The position numbers and the translations under genes were made by a program. Positions 11,808 to 18,805 of a stretch of DNA of 18,805 nucleotides are shown here, piece by piece. The notes beneath the pieces were generated by a model that saw nothing but the letters and a program-made list of their open reading frames with translations, made no database searches and had not been told where the DNA came from. The first letter of the stretch is position 1, and every line of letters begins with the position of its first letter. This DNA is from Clostridia bacterium (GTDB lineage: Bacteria; Bacillota_E; SLMV01; PUMD01), in assembly GCA_003562655.1 (NCBI GenBank), contig PWUC01000091.1, forward strand, positions 1 through 18,805, in the 5' to 3' direction.

Positions 11808-12962
11808 TTGTCGATGTGGTTCTTCCGGCGAAGGCGCAAAGATGGCGAACCTGAACCGTCAGGGGATGAAAAGCCCCGTACTCTGACGGTTCCCGATCAG
11901 TACCCGACCGTACAGGCCGCCATCGATGCAGCGACGGCGGGCTCGGTGGTGATCGTGAGTCCGGGACGGTATCGGGAGACGATTGACTTCAAAGGCAAAA
12001 GCATCACCGTTCGCAGTGAGGATCCAAACGACCGGGAGACTGTCACCGGTACGGTCCTGGATGCCGAACAGCGGGGAAGCGTGGTCTCTTTCTGCAGTGG
12101 GGAGAACGAGGAGGCGACGCTGGCAGGTTTCACCCTGACAGGAGGACGGGGGGATTTTTACGGACCCCCCTCCGGAGGTGGGGTGACGGTGCGGAACGGC
12201 TCCGGTCCCACCATAGAGAACAATGTAATAGCTGCAAACCTGAGTGAACTGGATGGGGGCGGCATCTTCGTTGATGATTCCTGGCCGGTCATCGTGAGAA
12301 ACCGGATCGTCGACAATGAGGCTGCTGGGTGCGGCGGAGGAATTCACATCGGACGGGATTCTGTGAGAGTTGAGGGTCGGCGCGAACCCCTCGCGACGAA
12401 GGATATCGCAGCCTATCTGGACAAGGCTTCACCGGGAGATTTTCGAATCCCAACCCTTGAGGATGAGGCTGAGGGTGACCTAAGCGGCCTCATGATTCAG
12501 TGGGAGGATACTGCTGAGGAAGAGGATGAGAAACGGCTGCCGCCCCGGGTCGAGAGCAACACCGTGGCCGGTAACTGCGCTCTCGCCGGGGGAGGGTTGC
12601 ACGTCTCTGATGAGTCACCCCTGGTCGAAAACAACGTGCTTCGCGAAAACCGGGCCGGCCGTGGAGGGGGGATGTGCTTCTGGGATAATTGCCGCGCCGT
12701 GGTCAGCGGCAATCACATCATCGCAAACGAGGCCACCGAGGAGGGAGGCGGGATGATGATTGAGTGGGGCGCCGCACCTGCCCTTGTGAAAAACCGTCTC
12801 CAGGAGAATGCGTCAGACCGTGGACGGGGCCTGTCGGTGTCCCAGAATGCGGCTCCCATCATCCGGGGCAACCGATTCGGCGGTGACAATTGCGAGGCTG
12901 TCTTCATGTGGGAGAGGAACCGCGCCACGGTGGAGGATAACACCTTTGAAGGTGGAGGCTGA
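11808..12962 (+). CDS. Parallel beta-helix (pectate-lyase-fold, DUF1565/NosD-like) protein 1
   Basis: The first part reads LTVPDQYPTVQAAIDAATAG followed by VVIVSPGRYRETIDFKGKSI, the entry segment of right-handed parallel beta-helix proteins of the NosD/DUF1565 kind. After it come repeating coils with NNVI, NRIVDN, GGGIFV, GGGIHI, GGGLHV and GGGMCF, about seven to nine turns. A less regular acidic insert interrupts them at about residues 185-245 (AYLDKAS... to EEEDEKR). There is no signal peptide: the N-terminus is MSMWFFRRRRKDG, polybasic with three aromatics, which might touch a membrane. The start is TTG 11808, or ATG 11814 ten bases after GGAGGGG. No catalytic signature of pectate lyase is visible. 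Its stop overlaps the ATG of the next gene (TGATG). Confidence 0.8.
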   Translation: MSMWFFRRRRKDGEPEPSGDEKPRTLTVPDQYPTVQAAIDAATAGSVVIVSPGRYRETIDFKGKSITVRSEDPNDRETVTGTVLDAEQRGSVVSFCSGENEEATLAGFTLTGGRGDFYGPPSGGGVTVRNGSGPTIENNVIAANLSELDGGGIFVDDSWPVIVRNRIVDNEAAGCGGGIHIGRDSVRVEGRREPLATKDIAAYLDKASPGDFRIPTLEDEAEGDLSGLMIQWEDTAEEEDEKRLPPRVESNTVAGNCALAGGGLHVSDESPLVENNVLRENRAGRGGGMCFWDNCRAVVSGNHIIANEATEEGGGMMIEWGAAPALVKNRLQENASDRGRGLSVSQNAAPIIRGNRFGGDNCEAVFMWERNRATVEDNTFEGGG

Positions 12963-14116
12963 TGGTCCTATTTCTACTGCTGGTCCTGGTGGTTGCAGCG
13001 ACGATTCTTGTGCTTCGCTGGCTTTCAGGTCACCGAGAGAATGGGGGTCGTGAGGCGCGCCTGCTGATTGTACCCGATCAATATGAGTCCGTGGGTGGGG
13101 CAATCCGGGCGGCCTCAAGTGGTGACACTGTGCTGGTTCGACCCGGGGTGTACAGGGAAAACGTGGATTTCCTGGGCAAGGAGATCACCGTTGTCAGTGA
13201 GAACCCGGACGATCAAGAGACCGTTGGACACACGGTGATCGATGGGGATAGACAGGGACCGGCCGTCTTCTTTGGCCGACAGGAGACCCGGCGCACGGTT
13301 CTGAAGGGTTTCACCATCACCGGTGGGATCGGCTGCCTTGCTGTGCGGTGGAATGTACTGGGAGAGGTTGCCCGGGCGGGGGGAGGCGTGTTCATCGGAG
13401 ACGGGTCGAATCCCACCGTGCGGAATAACGTCATCTCCGGGAATGCGGCAGACATGGGTGGGGGGCTCTATGTCTGTGCCACCTCGGCTGCCCTCATCGA
13501 GGACAACGAGATCAGCAGCAACTGCGCCGTACTGGGCGGGGGGATGCGGGTGGCACGGGATTTCCCCCGTCCCGAGGATGCCCAGTCCCATCGTGAACTC
13601 CCCTACGGCACCACCGTGCGCAACTGCAGGTTCATCGCCAACAGGGCTTCAATAGGTGGTGGTGTGTCGATCAGCCGGGGGGTCTCGCCTGAGCTGTCCG
13701 ATAACGTCTTCTCCCGGAACACAGCGAGGTGGGATGGTGGGGCGATTGCCATCTGGGACAATTCGTCCCCCCGGGTACTCAACAGCGAGTTCAGCGATAA
13801 CACGGCGGGCTCCGACTATGGCTTTGGTGCGGGGGTGAGCATCATGAATGACAGCCGGCCTCAAATAAGAGGCAACCGGTTTGTGGGCAATCAGGCAGTG
13901 GGGAAGATGAAGAGCGGGGGGGGTGCCCTCGCCATCTACCGTTCAACTCCGACCCTGGTCAGAAATACGGCGCGGGACAACCGGGCCAAGCTGGGCTGCA
14001 ACATGTATTTGTGGGGCGGTGCCAGTGCAGAGATGCAGGGCAACGATATTGAGGAAGGCACAGTGTTCATCAGACCCTCGGAGATTGCGCCACCCCGGGG
14101 TCCGGGTCCTCGATGA
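12962..14116 (+). CDS. Parallel beta-helix protein 2, membrane-anchored paralogue
   Basis: The protein is also 384 residues and is a clear tandem duplicate of its upstream neighbour: LIVPDQYESVGGAIRAASSG, PGVYRENVDFLGKEITVVSE and KGFTITGG match the first gene's LTVPDQYP..., SPGRYRETIDFKGKSITVRSE and AGFTLTGG, in the same order. The coils carry GGGVFIG, GGGLYV, GGGMRV, GGGVSI, GGAIAI and GGGALAI. Unlike protein 1, it starts with a hydrophobic stretch of about 19 residues (VLFLLLVLVVAATILVLRWL), an uncleaved anchor or signal anchor. The ATG overlaps the previous stop by one base. Orientation across the membrane cannot be decided: the residues after the anchor are R-W-L-S-G-H-R, and the short N-terminus has no charge. 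Ligand unknown. Confidence 0.8.
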   Translation: MVLFLLLVLVVAATILVLRWLSGHRENGGREARLLIVPDQYESVGGAIRAASSGDTVLVRPGVYRENVDFLGKEITVVSENPDDQETVGHTVIDGDRQGPAVFFGRQETRRTVLKGFTITGGIGCLAVRWNVLGEVARAGGGVFIGDGSNPTVRNNVISGNAADMGGGLYVCATSAALIEDNEISSNCAVLGGGMRVARDFPRPEDAQSHRELPYGTTVRNCRFIANRASIGGGVSISRGVSPELSDNVFSRNTARWDGGAIAIWDNSSPRVLNSEFSDNTAGSDYGFGAGVSIMNDSRPQIRGNRFVGNQAVGKMKSGGGALAIYRSTPTLVRNTARDNRAKLGCNMYLWGGASAEMQGNDIEEGTVFIRPSEIAPPRGPGPR

Positions 14117-14798: not shown

Positions 14799-15563
14799 TC
14801 AGCGTCGACCAAAGGGCATGATGTACAGGGGGCTTTCATCCGGGGGGAGCTGCATGATTTTTGTGACCTCGTCATCATCGAAGGCCCCGATCACCACCGT
14901 CCCGAGCTCCAGGGAGACCGCCTGCAGGTACGCGTTCTGCGCAGCATGACCTGCTTCCATGTGAACGTATCGGATACCGCGTTCGCCGTACCGGCGGGTG
15001 GTTCTTTCGTACACCGCCGTGAAGACGAGCAAGACGGCGGCATCTCTGACCGGGATCTGCTGCAGGGCAGCCCGGTAGAGGTCCTGGCGCAGGTCCTCCG
15101 AGGATTCCTTACGCAGTTGGTGACGATCCGCTTCATAGCGGTATAGGCCTTCAGATAAGCCCGTGACTTCACCGACGACGAGATACAGTTCGAGGGGGAA
15201 GGTGGCTCCGGCGGAGGGGGCAGTGCGGTAGCCCCTCTCAGTGCAGGTGATCCCCCCGGCAGACCAGAGCAGTTGTGATATTTCACCGAGGTGAAGGGGC
15301 TCCTCCAGGTAGGCACGGATCGACCGTCTCTCGGCCAGTGCGGCCTCGATGGCCAGGCTGCCGTCCTCTTTGTGTGCTGGAAGCTTCACCACCTCATCGA
15401 GGATCAGCTGCCCGCTGTTGGCTTCTGCAAGGGGGGGAGTCTCCTCCGGCAAGGGGATCTCCATGCTGTTCACCGGGCCCCGGAGGAGGGAGACGACCAG
15501 GATGGCTATGCCGAGACAGGCCAACACCGCCAGCACGGGTATCAGCAGGTTTCTTACGTCCAT
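14799..15563 (-). CDS. Membrane-anchored SagB/ThcOx-type nitroreductase-fold oxidoreductase
   Basis: From ATG 15563, ten bases after AAGGAG, the product has 254 residues. It begins with a hydrophobic segment at about residues 5-27 (anchor or uncleaved signal), then a proline and glutamate-rich linker. The FMN-dependent nitroreductase domain follows: ERRSIRAYLEEPL (78-90), LSQLLW-type helix, RTAPSAGATFPLELYLV (113-129), VHMEAGHAAQNAYLQAV (200-216) and VIGAFDDDE near the end. The PSAG..P.E.Y pattern is that of the SagB/ThcOx group, which oxidises azolines to azoles in peptide natural products. No YcaO cyclodehydratase or precursor peptide gene is visible here, so a role in such a pathway is not supported, and many ThcOx-like proteins stand alone. 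The anchor would place the domain outside the cytoplasm if it acts as a signal anchor. Confidence 0.8.
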   Translation of the reverse strand: MDVRNLLIPVLAVLACLGIAILVVSLLRGPVNSMEIPLPEETPPLAEANSGQLILDEVVKLPAHKEDGSLAIEAALAERRSIRAYLEEPLHLGEISQLLWSAGGITCTERGYRTAPSAGATFPLELYLVVGEVTGLSEGLYRYEADRHQLRKESSEDLRQDLYRAALQQIPVRDAAVLLVFTAVYERTTRRYGERGIRYVHMEAGHAAQNAYLQAVSLELGTVVIGAFDDDEVTKIMQLPPDESPLYIMPFGRR

Positions 15564-15842
15564 GATGCACCGACTCCTTTCCCTCATCGGGTGATCACAC
15601 TGCTGCTTCCTTTCGACCACAAGGTGTGGTTTCCCTACACCTATTGACTTATACGTACAGTTCCTCATCCCTTTGTTGCCACGGCTTTTTTGACACCAGC
15701 AACGCCCACCCTGACAGCCGGCAGACTGCGGAGTCGAGGCCCCGCACCCCTTCGTCCCTGTCAGGGCAGCCTCTGGGCCGGCATGGGCCGACGCTGCGGA
15801 AATGATCCCGATGCCTGTGATACAATGGGTCGGGGGGGGGAC

Positions 15843-16769
15843 ATGGATTTGGCTGGGAGAGAGGTTGAGGGTCTGGGTCCTGCCGGGGATATCGTGGTCT
15901 GTTCAACGGGGACCATGCCGTCTGCCCTGGGCATGCGCTATCATGAAATCGATGCCGCCCTCGAGGCCGCTGAGGTCATTCCCGCCAGGGACCTTGAGGT
16001 GGTTCTTCATCCCGACTGGCGACCGGGACTGCCCCCGAGATCGAAGCAGCCCGACCCTCCGGGGACATCGGGCACACTGACATCAGGGGAGATTGTGTCC
16101 AGGCTGAGAGAAGCCATGGCCCGGACCGGCGCCAGGATCCGTTCCATCCATGCCAACCGGGATCTGGGCACATTCCTGGGCGCCCGTGACAGTGGAACCC
16201 GGAGGATCGCGGCGGAGCTTCTTGAGGAGACCATTGGGATTGCACGTGAGGTGGGAGCCGGTATCATCGTCCTGCACCCCTGGAACAGCTGGGCGGGCGC
16301 GGTGGACCTGGAACACATCGCAGTTCCCATCATCGAGGCATCACGCTCCTCTGAGGCGGTCCTGACGGTGGAGAACATACCCCTCAGTGCCCCAGAATGG
16401 TCTCAGGCAGAGGCCATGGTCGGGCTGGCGGATCTACTGCCTGATGCTGTGGGCTTCACCCTGGATCTCTCGTGGAGCTCCATGTATGGGAATTTTGACG
16501 AGCTGTTGGTGCTGCTTTCGCGCGTAAAGAACGTACACGTGCAGGGAAGACTGATGACCGGGGACGACCGGGAATGGCTTCATCCGCGGGCTGGCAACAT
16601 GGATCTCGACGCCTCGATCCGGCGGTTGTGCCGCCTCGGTTACGACGGCCAGTGGACCCTGGAGCTGAACCGGCCTCGTTCACCGACAGATTTTCGACGG
16701 GGAATCAAGCATCTGCAGACTCTGATCGATTCCACAGATGACAAGGGGGGGATGCTGCATGAGCATTGA
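15843..16769 (+). CDS. TIM-barrel sugar isomerase/epimerase-like protein (AP endonuclease 2 superfamily)
   Basis: From ATG 15843, after a run of nine Gs, the product has 308 residues. The barrel strands are recognisable: DIVVCSTGTM, DLEVVLHP, ARIRSIHAN, GIIVLHPWNSW, EAVLTVENIP, VGFTLDLSW and NVHVQGR, with WTLELNRPR closing it. His, Glu, Asp and His/Glu at strand ends (HPWN, VENIP, LDLSW, LELN) correspond to the metal site of xylose isomerase-like enzymes. The substrate cannot be named. The frame is open back to 15690, but this extension contains no domain and the G-run gives no better site. The stop overlaps the next gene's start by 11 bases, so the two are translationally coupled. I therefore infer a shared pathway. 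Confidence 0.75.
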   Translation: MDLAGREVEGLGPAGDIVVCSTGTMPSALGMRYHEIDAALEAAEVIPARDLEVVLHPDWRPGLPPRSKQPDPPGTSGTLTSGEIVSRLREAMARTGARIRSIHANRDLGTFLGARDSGTRRIAAELLEETIGIAREVGAGIIVLHPWNSWAGAVDLEHIAVPIIEASRSSEAVLTVENIPLSAPEWSQAEAMVGLADLLPDAVGFTLDLSWSSMYGNFDELLVLLSRVKNVHVQGRLMTGDDREWLHPRAGNMDLDASIRRLCRLGYDGQWTLELNRPRSPTDFRRGIKHLQTLIDSTDDKGGMLHEH

Positions 16770-18309
16770 GATTTCGGGAGACATTGGAGTTGTGGCCGCC
16801 GGCATCAGGACGGGCCTGATTCTACCCGACGATGACATCGGTGAGATTGCTCTCTCGTCCGTTCGGGGTGTCGTGGATGATGGGGACATCATCTGCATCA
16901 CAGAGTCCGTGGTGGCCAGGTCCCAGAACCGCTACCTGACCTGCGACGACCTGGCTGCTGATATCAGGCAGAAACTGGCTCTGAATCCCGGGGCAACGGT
17001 GGCGGTGATCAGCCCGATCGTCAGTCGCAACCGCTTTGCCCTGATCCTCCGGGCCATTGCCGGGGCGACAGGTGGGGGGCGGGTGATCATCCAGCTGGCA
17101 ATACCCCACGATGAGGTGGGCAACCAGGTGCTGGACAGGGATGTTGCCACGACCCGGCTGCGGCTGAAGAGGATATTTGACAGCATGCAGGAGGTACGGG
17201 GCAACACCCCGCACATGAACGTGCTCATTCGGGAAGTGCTGGCTGCCCTCAAACTGCAGGAGATCGGTTACCAGCTGATAGGGATACGCAAGATAACCGG
17301 TCAGGGAATGGCCGATGTCACTGTCCGCGATTCCGATGGGCGGGTCATCTCCGCGGAGGTCGGATTCGGGGACGTGGAGGGTACGGCGAGGAAGGCCCTC
17401 GGCATCATGCGTGACGCCGGCACCGATGGAGCACTCGCGGTGGCGGTGGATCTGCAGAGTCACCGCATCACCATCGTTGATGCCGTCCAGTGTCGGGATG
17501 CGTCACCGGAGGAGTCGCTGGTGGCCGAGCTCGACTACACCGATCAGCTGGCAGTATACCGGGATCCCGATTGCCTGTATTTTGATGAGCTGAGCCATCT
17601 GAGCTTCTCGCATCCGATCACCGGGATGGATTACCCCCGCCTGTACCGCGATGTGGTCGCGGACCAGGGGGCGAAACCCGACATACTGTTCACCAACAAT
17701 CCGCTGAAGGTATTCGACAGGGGGTTTGTGGACGGCATCGTGATCGGGGCCGTGCACGAGCGAAACGAACTGAAGGATCTGTTTCTGTCCTTTGGGACCC
17801 AGACCCCCATGGTGACCATTCAGGAGATCGGCCCCGAGCCCTGGGGCGTCATCGGTTCCAACGTCTCGCACAACGAAAGAGGCATATTGAAGTTGCTCCC
17901 GGACAACGCCGACGAGACAGCAGACGACATCAAGGCGAAAATCCTGTCCGAGACCGGCAAGTCGGTGGAGGTGCTGATATTCGGTGATGGTGCCTACAAG
18001 GACCCCGACACGGGTATTTACGAACTGGCGGATCCCCATCCGGCCATCGGCTGCAGTTCGGGCCTGCGCAACGCATCCCTGCGGAGGGGGACCAAGCTCA
18101 AACTGCAGGTGGAGACCCTGTTCAGGGGAGGCCATTCCCGCGAGGAGATCCAGCGGATTCTCGACAGCGGCGATGACCTCGTCAGCCGGGAGAGCCTGGG
18201 CACAACTCCGAGGAGCGTGACCGCCATCCTGGGCACCCTGGCAGACCTGGCGGCGGGTTCGGCCGATGCGGGGACCCCCATTGTTCTGGTTCGCAACTTC
18301 TCCTTCTGA
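16759..18309 (+). CDS. CofE-like (F420-0:L-glutamate ligase family) protein with inserted domain
   Basis: ATG 16759 follows GGGGGGG and overlaps the previous gene. The 516-residue product matches the Firmicutes CofE-like family (about 400 residues) at both ends. The N-terminal part has AAGIRTGLILPDDDIGEI, DDGDIICITESVVARSQNRY and ISPIVSRNRFALILR. The C-terminal part has HPITGMDYPRLYRDVV, VEVLIFGDGAYKDPDTG and TPRSVTAILGTLADLAAGS, ending GTPIVLVRNFSF. CofE itself joins glutamate to the F420 precursor by an amide bond with GTP and metal; family members in Firmicutes without F420 have no known substrate. Between the two halves, at about residues 130-258, lies an extra segment absent from the members I can recall. 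It reads as helix, strands and helix with ADVTV and ISAEVGFGD. The enzyme class is fairly sure, the substrate unknown. Confidence 0.8.
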   Translation: MSIEISGDIGVVAAGIRTGLILPDDDIGEIALSSVRGVVDDGDIICITESVVARSQNRYLTCDDLAADIRQKLALNPGATVAVISPIVSRNRFALILRAIAGATGGGRVIIQLAIPHDEVGNQVLDRDVATTRLRLKRIFDSMQEVRGNTPHMNVLIREVLAALKLQEIGYQLIGIRKITGQGMADVTVRDSDGRVISAEVGFGDVEGTARKALGIMRDAGTDGALAVAVDLQSHRITIVDAVQCRDASPEESLVAELDYTDQLAVYRDPDCLYFDELSHLSFSHPITGMDYPRLYRDVVADQGAKPDILFTNNPLKVFDRGFVDGIVIGAVHERNELKDLFLSFGTQTPMVTIQEIGPEPWGVIGSNVSHNERGILKLLPDNADETADDIKAKILSETGKSVEVLIFGDGAYKDPDTGIYELADPHPAIGCSSGLRNASLRRGTKLKLQVETLFRGGHSREEIQRILDSGDDLVSRESLGTTPRSVTAILGTLADLAAGSADAGTPIVLVRNFSF

Positions 18310-18365: not shown

Positions 18366-18805
18366 GTGGGGACGGATCTTGCGGCCGATGCGCTGGGGTT
18401 GATCGGTGACACGCCCCTGGTAAAGGTGAAGGTGGACGGGTACGAGGTTCTCGCCAAGGTTGAGTACGTCAACCCGACGGGCAGTCACAAGGACCGCATC
18501 TATCTGCGGATGATTGAGCAGGCCGAAAGGCGCGGCCAACTGCGACCCGGCATGACCATCATAGAGGGTTCCACCGGCAACGCCGGGGCCGCCTGTGCCA
18601 TGGTGGGGCGTCTCAGGGGATACCGGGTGGTGGTGGTCATGCCCGGGGGCATGTCAGAGGAGAGGAAGAAACTGATCCGGGCGCTGGGGGCCGAGCTGAT
18701 TCTCACCCCCGGTGCCGAGAGCGATCAGGACCTGGCCCTGGCCCGGGTTGAGGAGATCGTCGCCCGGAATCCCGATCAATACTGGTACCCGGCCCAGTTT
18801 GACAA
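18366..18805 (+). CDS. Cysteine-synthase-like PLP-dependent enzyme, 5' part
   Basis: The frame starts at GTG 18366, seven bases after GGAGGT, and runs to the window edge, giving 146 residues. GLIGDTPLVKVKV, EYVNPTGSHKDR (likely Schiff-base lysine K42), IIEGSTGNAGAACAMV (67-80, phosphate/substrate loop) and YRVVVVMPGGMSEERKK are typical of the fold-type II cysteine synthase/cystathionine beta-synthase family. Many members read N-P-x-x-S-x-K-D-R; here the pair is GSHKDR. The gene follows the CofE-like gene by 56 bases with no visible terminator. It could make cysteine or a derivative such as a 2,3-diaminopropionate-type amino acid; the missing C-terminal half prevents a choice. Confidence 0.87.
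   Translation, partial: MGTDLAADALGLIGDTPLVKVKVDGYEVLAKVEYVNPTGSHKDRIYLRMIEQAERRGQLRPGMTIIEGSTGNAGAACAMVGRLRGYRVVVVMPGGMSEERKKLIRALGAELILTPGAESDQDLALARVEEIVARNPDQYWYPAQFD

Follow-up and report, generated by a model that had tools for sequence, protein, structure and literature searches.

Does a CofE-like ligase of a Clostridia bacterium carry a second, nuclease-like domain inside its chain, and might that domain still hold a working site? The question is raised by an open reading frame (ORF) on contig PWUC01000091.1, which was analyzed here over a window of 18,805 nucleotides, the whole stretch of DNA under study. A preliminary description of this window proposed that the two halves of the ligase are separated by an extra segment (17146-17532, residues 130-258 of the ORF) resembling an inactive PD-(D/E)xK fold. 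The ORF product of 516 amino acids plus stop, scanned from residue 2 on, matches PF01996 (F420_ligase) over residues 15-513 with an E value of 5.4e-43 and 147.5 bits; the gathering cut-off of 25 bits is exceeded and the profile is covered from 1 to 218 of 218, so that the product belongs to this family. It also has the CofE fold. One relative is 87% identical to it over the full length. Judged from the sequences sampled, the insertion is a discrete block that is confined to a single clade, is under purifying selection and contains three almost invariant acidic residues, E159, D186 and E200.

The borders of the block were defined with relatives that lack it. Among the matches listed in a protein search the nearest insertless ones, P0120 (396 amino acids) and P0121 (393 amino acids), 41 and 43% identical to the ligase over about half of the query, align with both flanks and skip the segment. 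The N-half matches listed for insertless relatives begin at query residue 3-5 and stop at 128-141, most of them at 131, and the C-half matches listed start at residue 261-283 and end at 511-515. The motifs DEVGN and HPIT are 39 amino acids apart in six insertless loci and 165-171 amino acids apart in insert-bearing loci; these distances come from the loci in which the motif search succeeded, as it failed in 11 of 42. An alignment of 112 insert-bearing and 51 insertless rows has insert-only columns at residues 136-267, within which the aligner placed the patch 150-162 in common with insertless rows. A search with a 25-row alignment, counted by hand, found matches in 188 of 398 Bacillota genomes: 22 contain the insert in one open frame and one more, G001, contains it in two pieces. 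Named carriers, known from the protein search, include Natranaerobius thermophilus and N. trueperi. In 94 genomes the best match lies between 1e-102 and 1e-27, and the matches listed for them fall into separate halves that flank residues 131-268 and leave the insert unspanned; in 71 genomes no match is better than 9e-10. At least two of the 23 insert-bearing genomes (G010 and G057) encode both forms. Insertless relatives, motif distances and alignment thus confirm that the CofE-like halves are split by an extra segment, and P0120, P0121, the Bacillota genomes and the motif distances show its absence from close relatives.

A FastTree phylogeny calculated from 371 core columns, insert excluded, separates 112 insert-bearing from 49 insertless sequences by one branch with a support of 1.0 and a length of 0.78 substitutions per site. 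The final tree was built without L041, whose longest frame is an unrelated transporter and whose ligase frame has a stop, and without L037 (265 core residues); in an earlier tree that included L041, this sequence fell inside the insert clade. Between the window and locus L001 (86% identical in tblastn) the ratio of nonsynonymous to synonymous substitution rates is 0.14 in the insert and 0.10 in the rest of the gene, which shows the insert to be under purifying selection. Residue conservation was counted on those 109 of 132 protein matches that have the DEVGN to HPIT stretch, including the window's own protein and the shorter P0113, P0116 and P0122; the insert-length matches P0004, P0027, P0037, P0058 and P0103 lie outside this count, and identities and polar residues were counted on 105 of the 109 proteins. 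Mean pairwise identity is 58% for the insert and 67% for the core, with a correlation of r 0.90. The combination of ligase and nuclease fold looks old and maintained. In Syntrophaceticus schinkii (L005, 4923-6553) the insert-bearing gene lies in two frames with the break inside the insert, either a sequencing error or a real split.

The fold of the insert was predicted with AlphaFold2 from the segment alone, giving a mean predicted local distance difference test score of 90.4 and a predicted template modelling score of 0.86, as expected of an independent domain. Structural matches of this predicted model are Hjc, I-Ssp6803I, HsdR and SPARDA, all from one superfamily and its neighbour, which supports the restriction-endonuclease-like fold suggested earlier. 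When a profile of the 109 insert sequences was compared with one of 30 UPF0102 proteins, the score was 30.2 (probability 59%, 43 columns). Column-shuffled insert profiles (n = 60) reached a mean of 12.4 and a maximum of 20.4 against UPF0102, and the insert profile scored 10.5-17.3 against YbeY, RbfA and three ligase pieces. In the UPF0102 alignment E159 falls on the N-terminal Glu, D186 on the Asp and E200-V-G202 on E-V-K. The insert profile scored 15.4 against Mrr, under the shuffle maximum of 17.3, and 12.7 against RecU, for which only six sequences were available. With the same method UPF0102 scored 40.1 against Mrr and only 12.6 against RecU, so that the method misses true members. Taken by sequence alone, the link between insert and UPF0102 is suggestive but not conclusive.

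The isolated segment had no match in Pfam at E values up to 1 or in NCBIfam at E values up to 0.1, and Pfam searches with 22 insert segments gave no convincing match, the best being Adenine_deam_C (0.038), NucS_C (0.092) and Methyltransf_4 (0.17) with one member each. Nothing credible was found among PDB sequences (best E value 0.081). When about 5.8 billion proteins were searched with a profile, 12 matches were returned, in six of which, those examined, a CofE-like core is present; these appear to be pieces of insert-bearing genes, and no stand-alone relative was recognised among them. Two of the other six also carry PF01996, and the remaining four are short.

The residues expected at the active site of the nuclease superfamily are largely present. 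PMC1913061 describes the core of the superfamily and what motifs I to IV do. The preliminary description had pointed to D186 and E200, 14 residues apart, and to a glycine, G202, at the third motif position; the UPF0102 register shows that this assignment was correct. Motif II has its aspartate and motif III its acid (E200 in 108 of 109 sequences), and the canonical lysine of motif III is absent, therefore the insert does not count as a canonical PD-(D/E)XK nuclease. Position 202 is T in 81 sequences, S in 20, G in six and A or V in one each, and never K. What had been overlooked is E159, present in 108 of 109 sequences, and a basic residue at position 212 (K or R in 107). Q167 and R158 are found in all 109, and R133, K137, R147 and R158 are conserved basic residues outside the predicted acid site. 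Superfamily members with a threonine at the motif III lysine and a Lys/Arg moved to the next helix have been described before: for DUF1626-type families the excerpted text of PMC1913061 states that the lysine is often threonine and that Lys/Arg of the following helix is thought to substitute, and that of PMC1189080 likewise lists replaced and migrated active-site residues. In its sequence the insert displays the same pattern, with K/R212 as the candidate migrated residue. Since the acids are almost never lost and the sequence pattern is like that of DUF1626, the label inactive goes too far. In the divergent 501-residue member P0112 the residues E159, K178 and E200 are replaced by V, W and F, and D186 and the domain are retained; this joint loss fits residues working as one site, albeit in a single divergent case.

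We consider it probable that the protein is an amide ligase of the F420_ligase family, one ancestor of which acquired a restriction-endonuclease-like domain in mid-chain, and that this domain forms a site for metal and a phosphate-containing ligand. E159, D186 and E200 would bind one or two divalent metals, and K/R212 of the next helix, or K178, would replace the lysine normally located two residues past the motif III acid. Metals at the acids and a stand-in lysine would thus allow the domain to bind a phosphate-containing ligand and perhaps to hydrolyze a phosphodiester; the ligase part would then act on that molecule or one linked to it, which the conserved basic residues of the first helices (R133, K137, R147, R158, R177 and K178) may help to hold. 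We regard it as doubtful that one chain goes as far as combining a CofE-fold amide ligase with a metal-dependent phosphodiesterase of nuclease fold, both alternating on one substrate. Such a substrate might be a phosphodiester-containing cofactor-like molecule, or a nucleic acid that gains an amino acid or releases a conjugate. F420 contains a phosphodiester bond. If this bifunctional reading is true, Bacillota without visible F420 genes would have an unrecognised glutamyl-conjugate pathway.

Several observations speak for a domain without catalysis. The motif III lysine is missing in 109 of 109 sequences, many of the conserved basic residues (R133, K137, R147, R158) lie outside the predicted acid site, and P0112, which kept the domain and lost E159, K178 and E200, is evidence that the predicted site of the insert is dispensable for the existence of the ligase. 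A precedent has been published as well: in the nuclease-like domain of RecC catalysis was lost and another role gained (PMC1185551, available part). The insert could accordingly, like the RecC domain, be a non-catalytic nuclease fold, kept for binding nucleic acid, a nucleotide or the ligase substrate, or for protein assembly, which is close to what the preliminary description had in mind. Binding without cutting is possible as far as the residues tell, yet the RecC domain is described in the same part of that source as being without catalytic features, whereas here the three acids are found in 108-109 of 109 sequences and K/R212 in 107, and we consider a purely non-catalytic role somewhat unlikely. 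Very improbable, in our view, is that the segment elaborates the structure of the ligase, resembles a nuclease by chance, has no ligand site of its own and uses its conserved residues for packing against the core. The structural matches are confined to one superfamily and its neighbour, the UPF0102 profile score is higher than that of any of the 60 shuffles and of the five unrelated profiles tried and is in register on the catalytic positions, and conserved E, D and E are atypical of packing. In addition, the block is absent from close relatives and therefore not needed by the ligase core. A domain with a metal and phosphate-ligand site thus remains our preferred explanation.

Insert-bearing proteins carry F420 ligase names in public records. 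The window's protein scores 44.1 bits against TIGR01916 (F420_cofE; cut-off 180.65) and 48.2 bits against NF009809 (cut-off 274). In 26 insert-bearing genomes, whose completeness is not stated and which do not include the window's own genome, no CofH and no CofD reached its curated cut-off (each in 0 of 26), whereas three of 14 control genomes were above it in each search. The best CofD match in the 26 genomes has 30.5 bits (cut-off 257.45). What speaks against rejecting an F420 role is that G001, G005, G167 and G192 have eight CofH matches with 320-349 bits, close to the cut-off of 374.1; these are probably related menaquinone radical S-adenosylmethionine enzymes. With the equivalog cut-offs missed and no CofD or CofH over cut-off, a strict F420 ligase was rejected as the likely role, and the F420-ligase name of these proteins is doubtful. 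That the clade gained a nuclease-fold domain with intact acids is a further argument against this name. Replacement of FolC is likewise unlikely, since all of the 26 genomes but G339 have a FolC above the cut-off (25 of 26). The ligase is thus probably neither an F420 ligase nor the main folate glutamyl ligase of the cell.

Both parent kinds are known and their combination is new. CofE of A. fulgidus (PDB 2phn, 7uld; PF01996, TIGR01916) is half as long as the insert-bearing protein, which differs from it by an extra alpha/beta region, the nuclease-fold insert and its occurrence in genomes where neither CofD nor CofH exceeds the cut-off. CofE forms dimers; the active site is located at their interface, and a domain-swapped hairpin covers the cofactor (PMC10861534). 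The insertless CofE-like Bacillota proteins of about 395 residues are the nearest relatives of the ligase halves and cover the whole PF01996 profile; they lack the insert and fall outside the insert clade. On the nuclease side, UPF0102/YraN (PF02021), also restriction-endonuclease-like, has its E, D and E-x-K positions in register with the insert, but comprises small proteins with E-V-K where the insert has E-V-T/S/G. The archaeal Holliday junction resolvase Hjc (1gef, 2wcw), unlike the insert-bearing protein, has K48 in motif III and no ligase part. DUF1626, DUF506 and DUF790, families with a migrated lysine, can be likened to the insert by description only: they have a non-lysine at motif III (threonine in DUF1626) and a conserved Lys/Arg in the following helix (PMC1913061, excerpt). 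That the ligase family can use substrates other than F420 is indicated by FolC2 of Chlamydia (CT611), which belongs to COG1478 and can complement a folC mutant of E. coli (PMC1971073); it replaces a missing FolC, in contrast to the presence of FolC in nearly all insert-bearing genomes. None of the titles and abstracts listed from the open-licence literature on CofE-type ligases and the nuclease superfamily deals with such an insert. The protein would add a nuclease fold in another use, or the first ligase-nuclease fusion, and with a predicted metal site, defined residues and named carriers the insert offers a handle on the function of the ligase. To our knowledge, no other amide ligase contains a nuclease-fold domain.

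Table 1. Positions of the ligase gene, its parts and its neighbours in the window
Feature	Position	Strand	Basis
CofE-like (F420_ligase family) gene with inserted domain	16759..18309	+	PF01996; 87%-identity full-length relative; frame checked
Ligase N-terminal part, residues 1-131	16759..17151	+	ends of N-half matches in insertless relatives
Inserted domain, predicted restriction-endonuclease-like, residues 132-268	17152..17562	+	no counterpart in insertless relatives; AlphaFold2 model; structural matches
Ligase C-terminal part, residues 269-516	17563..18306	+	C-half matches in insertless relatives
E159, putative motif I acid, first core helix	17233..17235	+	108/109; aligned with UPF0102 N-terminal Glu
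R177-K178, basic pair after first strand	17287..17292	+	109/109 and 108/109
D186, putative motif II aspartate	17314..17316	+	109/109; aligned with UPF0102 Asp
E200-V201-G202, putative motif III (E-x-K position)	17356..17364	+	aligned with UPF0102 E-V-K
K212, helix after motif III, candidate migrated lysine	17392..17394	+	K 99, R 8, Q 2 of 109
SagB-family nitroreductase	14799-15668	-	TIGR03605 over cut-off; order kept in L001, L002
Triosephosphate isomerase (TIM)-barrel gene (AP_endonuc_2), upstream	15690..16769	+	PF01261, E 5.3e-13; same order in L001, L002
Cysteine-synthase-like pyridoxal phosphate (PLP) enzyme, downstream, cut by window end	18366..18805	+	same order in L001, L002

The gene context was compared by clustering the proteins of 24 loci and the window, 20 of them insert-bearing (window included) and five insertless. 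The window, L001 and L002 have in common the nitroreductase on the opposite strand, the TIM-barrel gene, the ligase and the PLP enzyme, which is followed by an M20 peptidase in L001 and L002; among the clustered loci only these three have this longer conserved neighbourhood. The arrangement resembles a small operon, which may serve an amino-acid-like conjugate. The TIM-barrel gene, whose own start codon may lie further in, overlaps the ligase start by 11 bases, and the truncated PLP enzyme matches TIGR01136 with an E value of 2.3e-43 and 148.7 bits (cut-off 344.15). A fusion of a CofE domain with a nitroreductase is known from mycobacterial FbiB (PMC8498797). Elsewhere neighbours are common within pairs of similar loci (for instance L043/L056, L044/L062 and L004/L049) or patchy. 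One gene cluster found in six insert-bearing loci consists of generic ABC ATPases (six of six scanned), and in a cluster shared by L051, L053 and L055 one of three members matches a glycosyl transferase family.

The insertless paralogue lies near methylenetetrahydrofolate reductase in both G057 and G010, and near a methionine-synthase-like protein that is annotated in G057 only and belongs to the same cluster in G010; these neighbours are a hint at one-carbon metabolism. In L057 (7184-12348), whose genome also has the insert-bearing form, the insertless paralogue is followed by a protein with no Pfam match, methylenetetrahydrofolate reductase and a methionine-synthase-like protein. Further upstream in the window, two adjacent similar proteins of 384 residues are encoded (11808-12962 and 12962-14116), with repeats that by eye resemble a beta-helix; the same tandem pair is also found upstream in L001 and L002.
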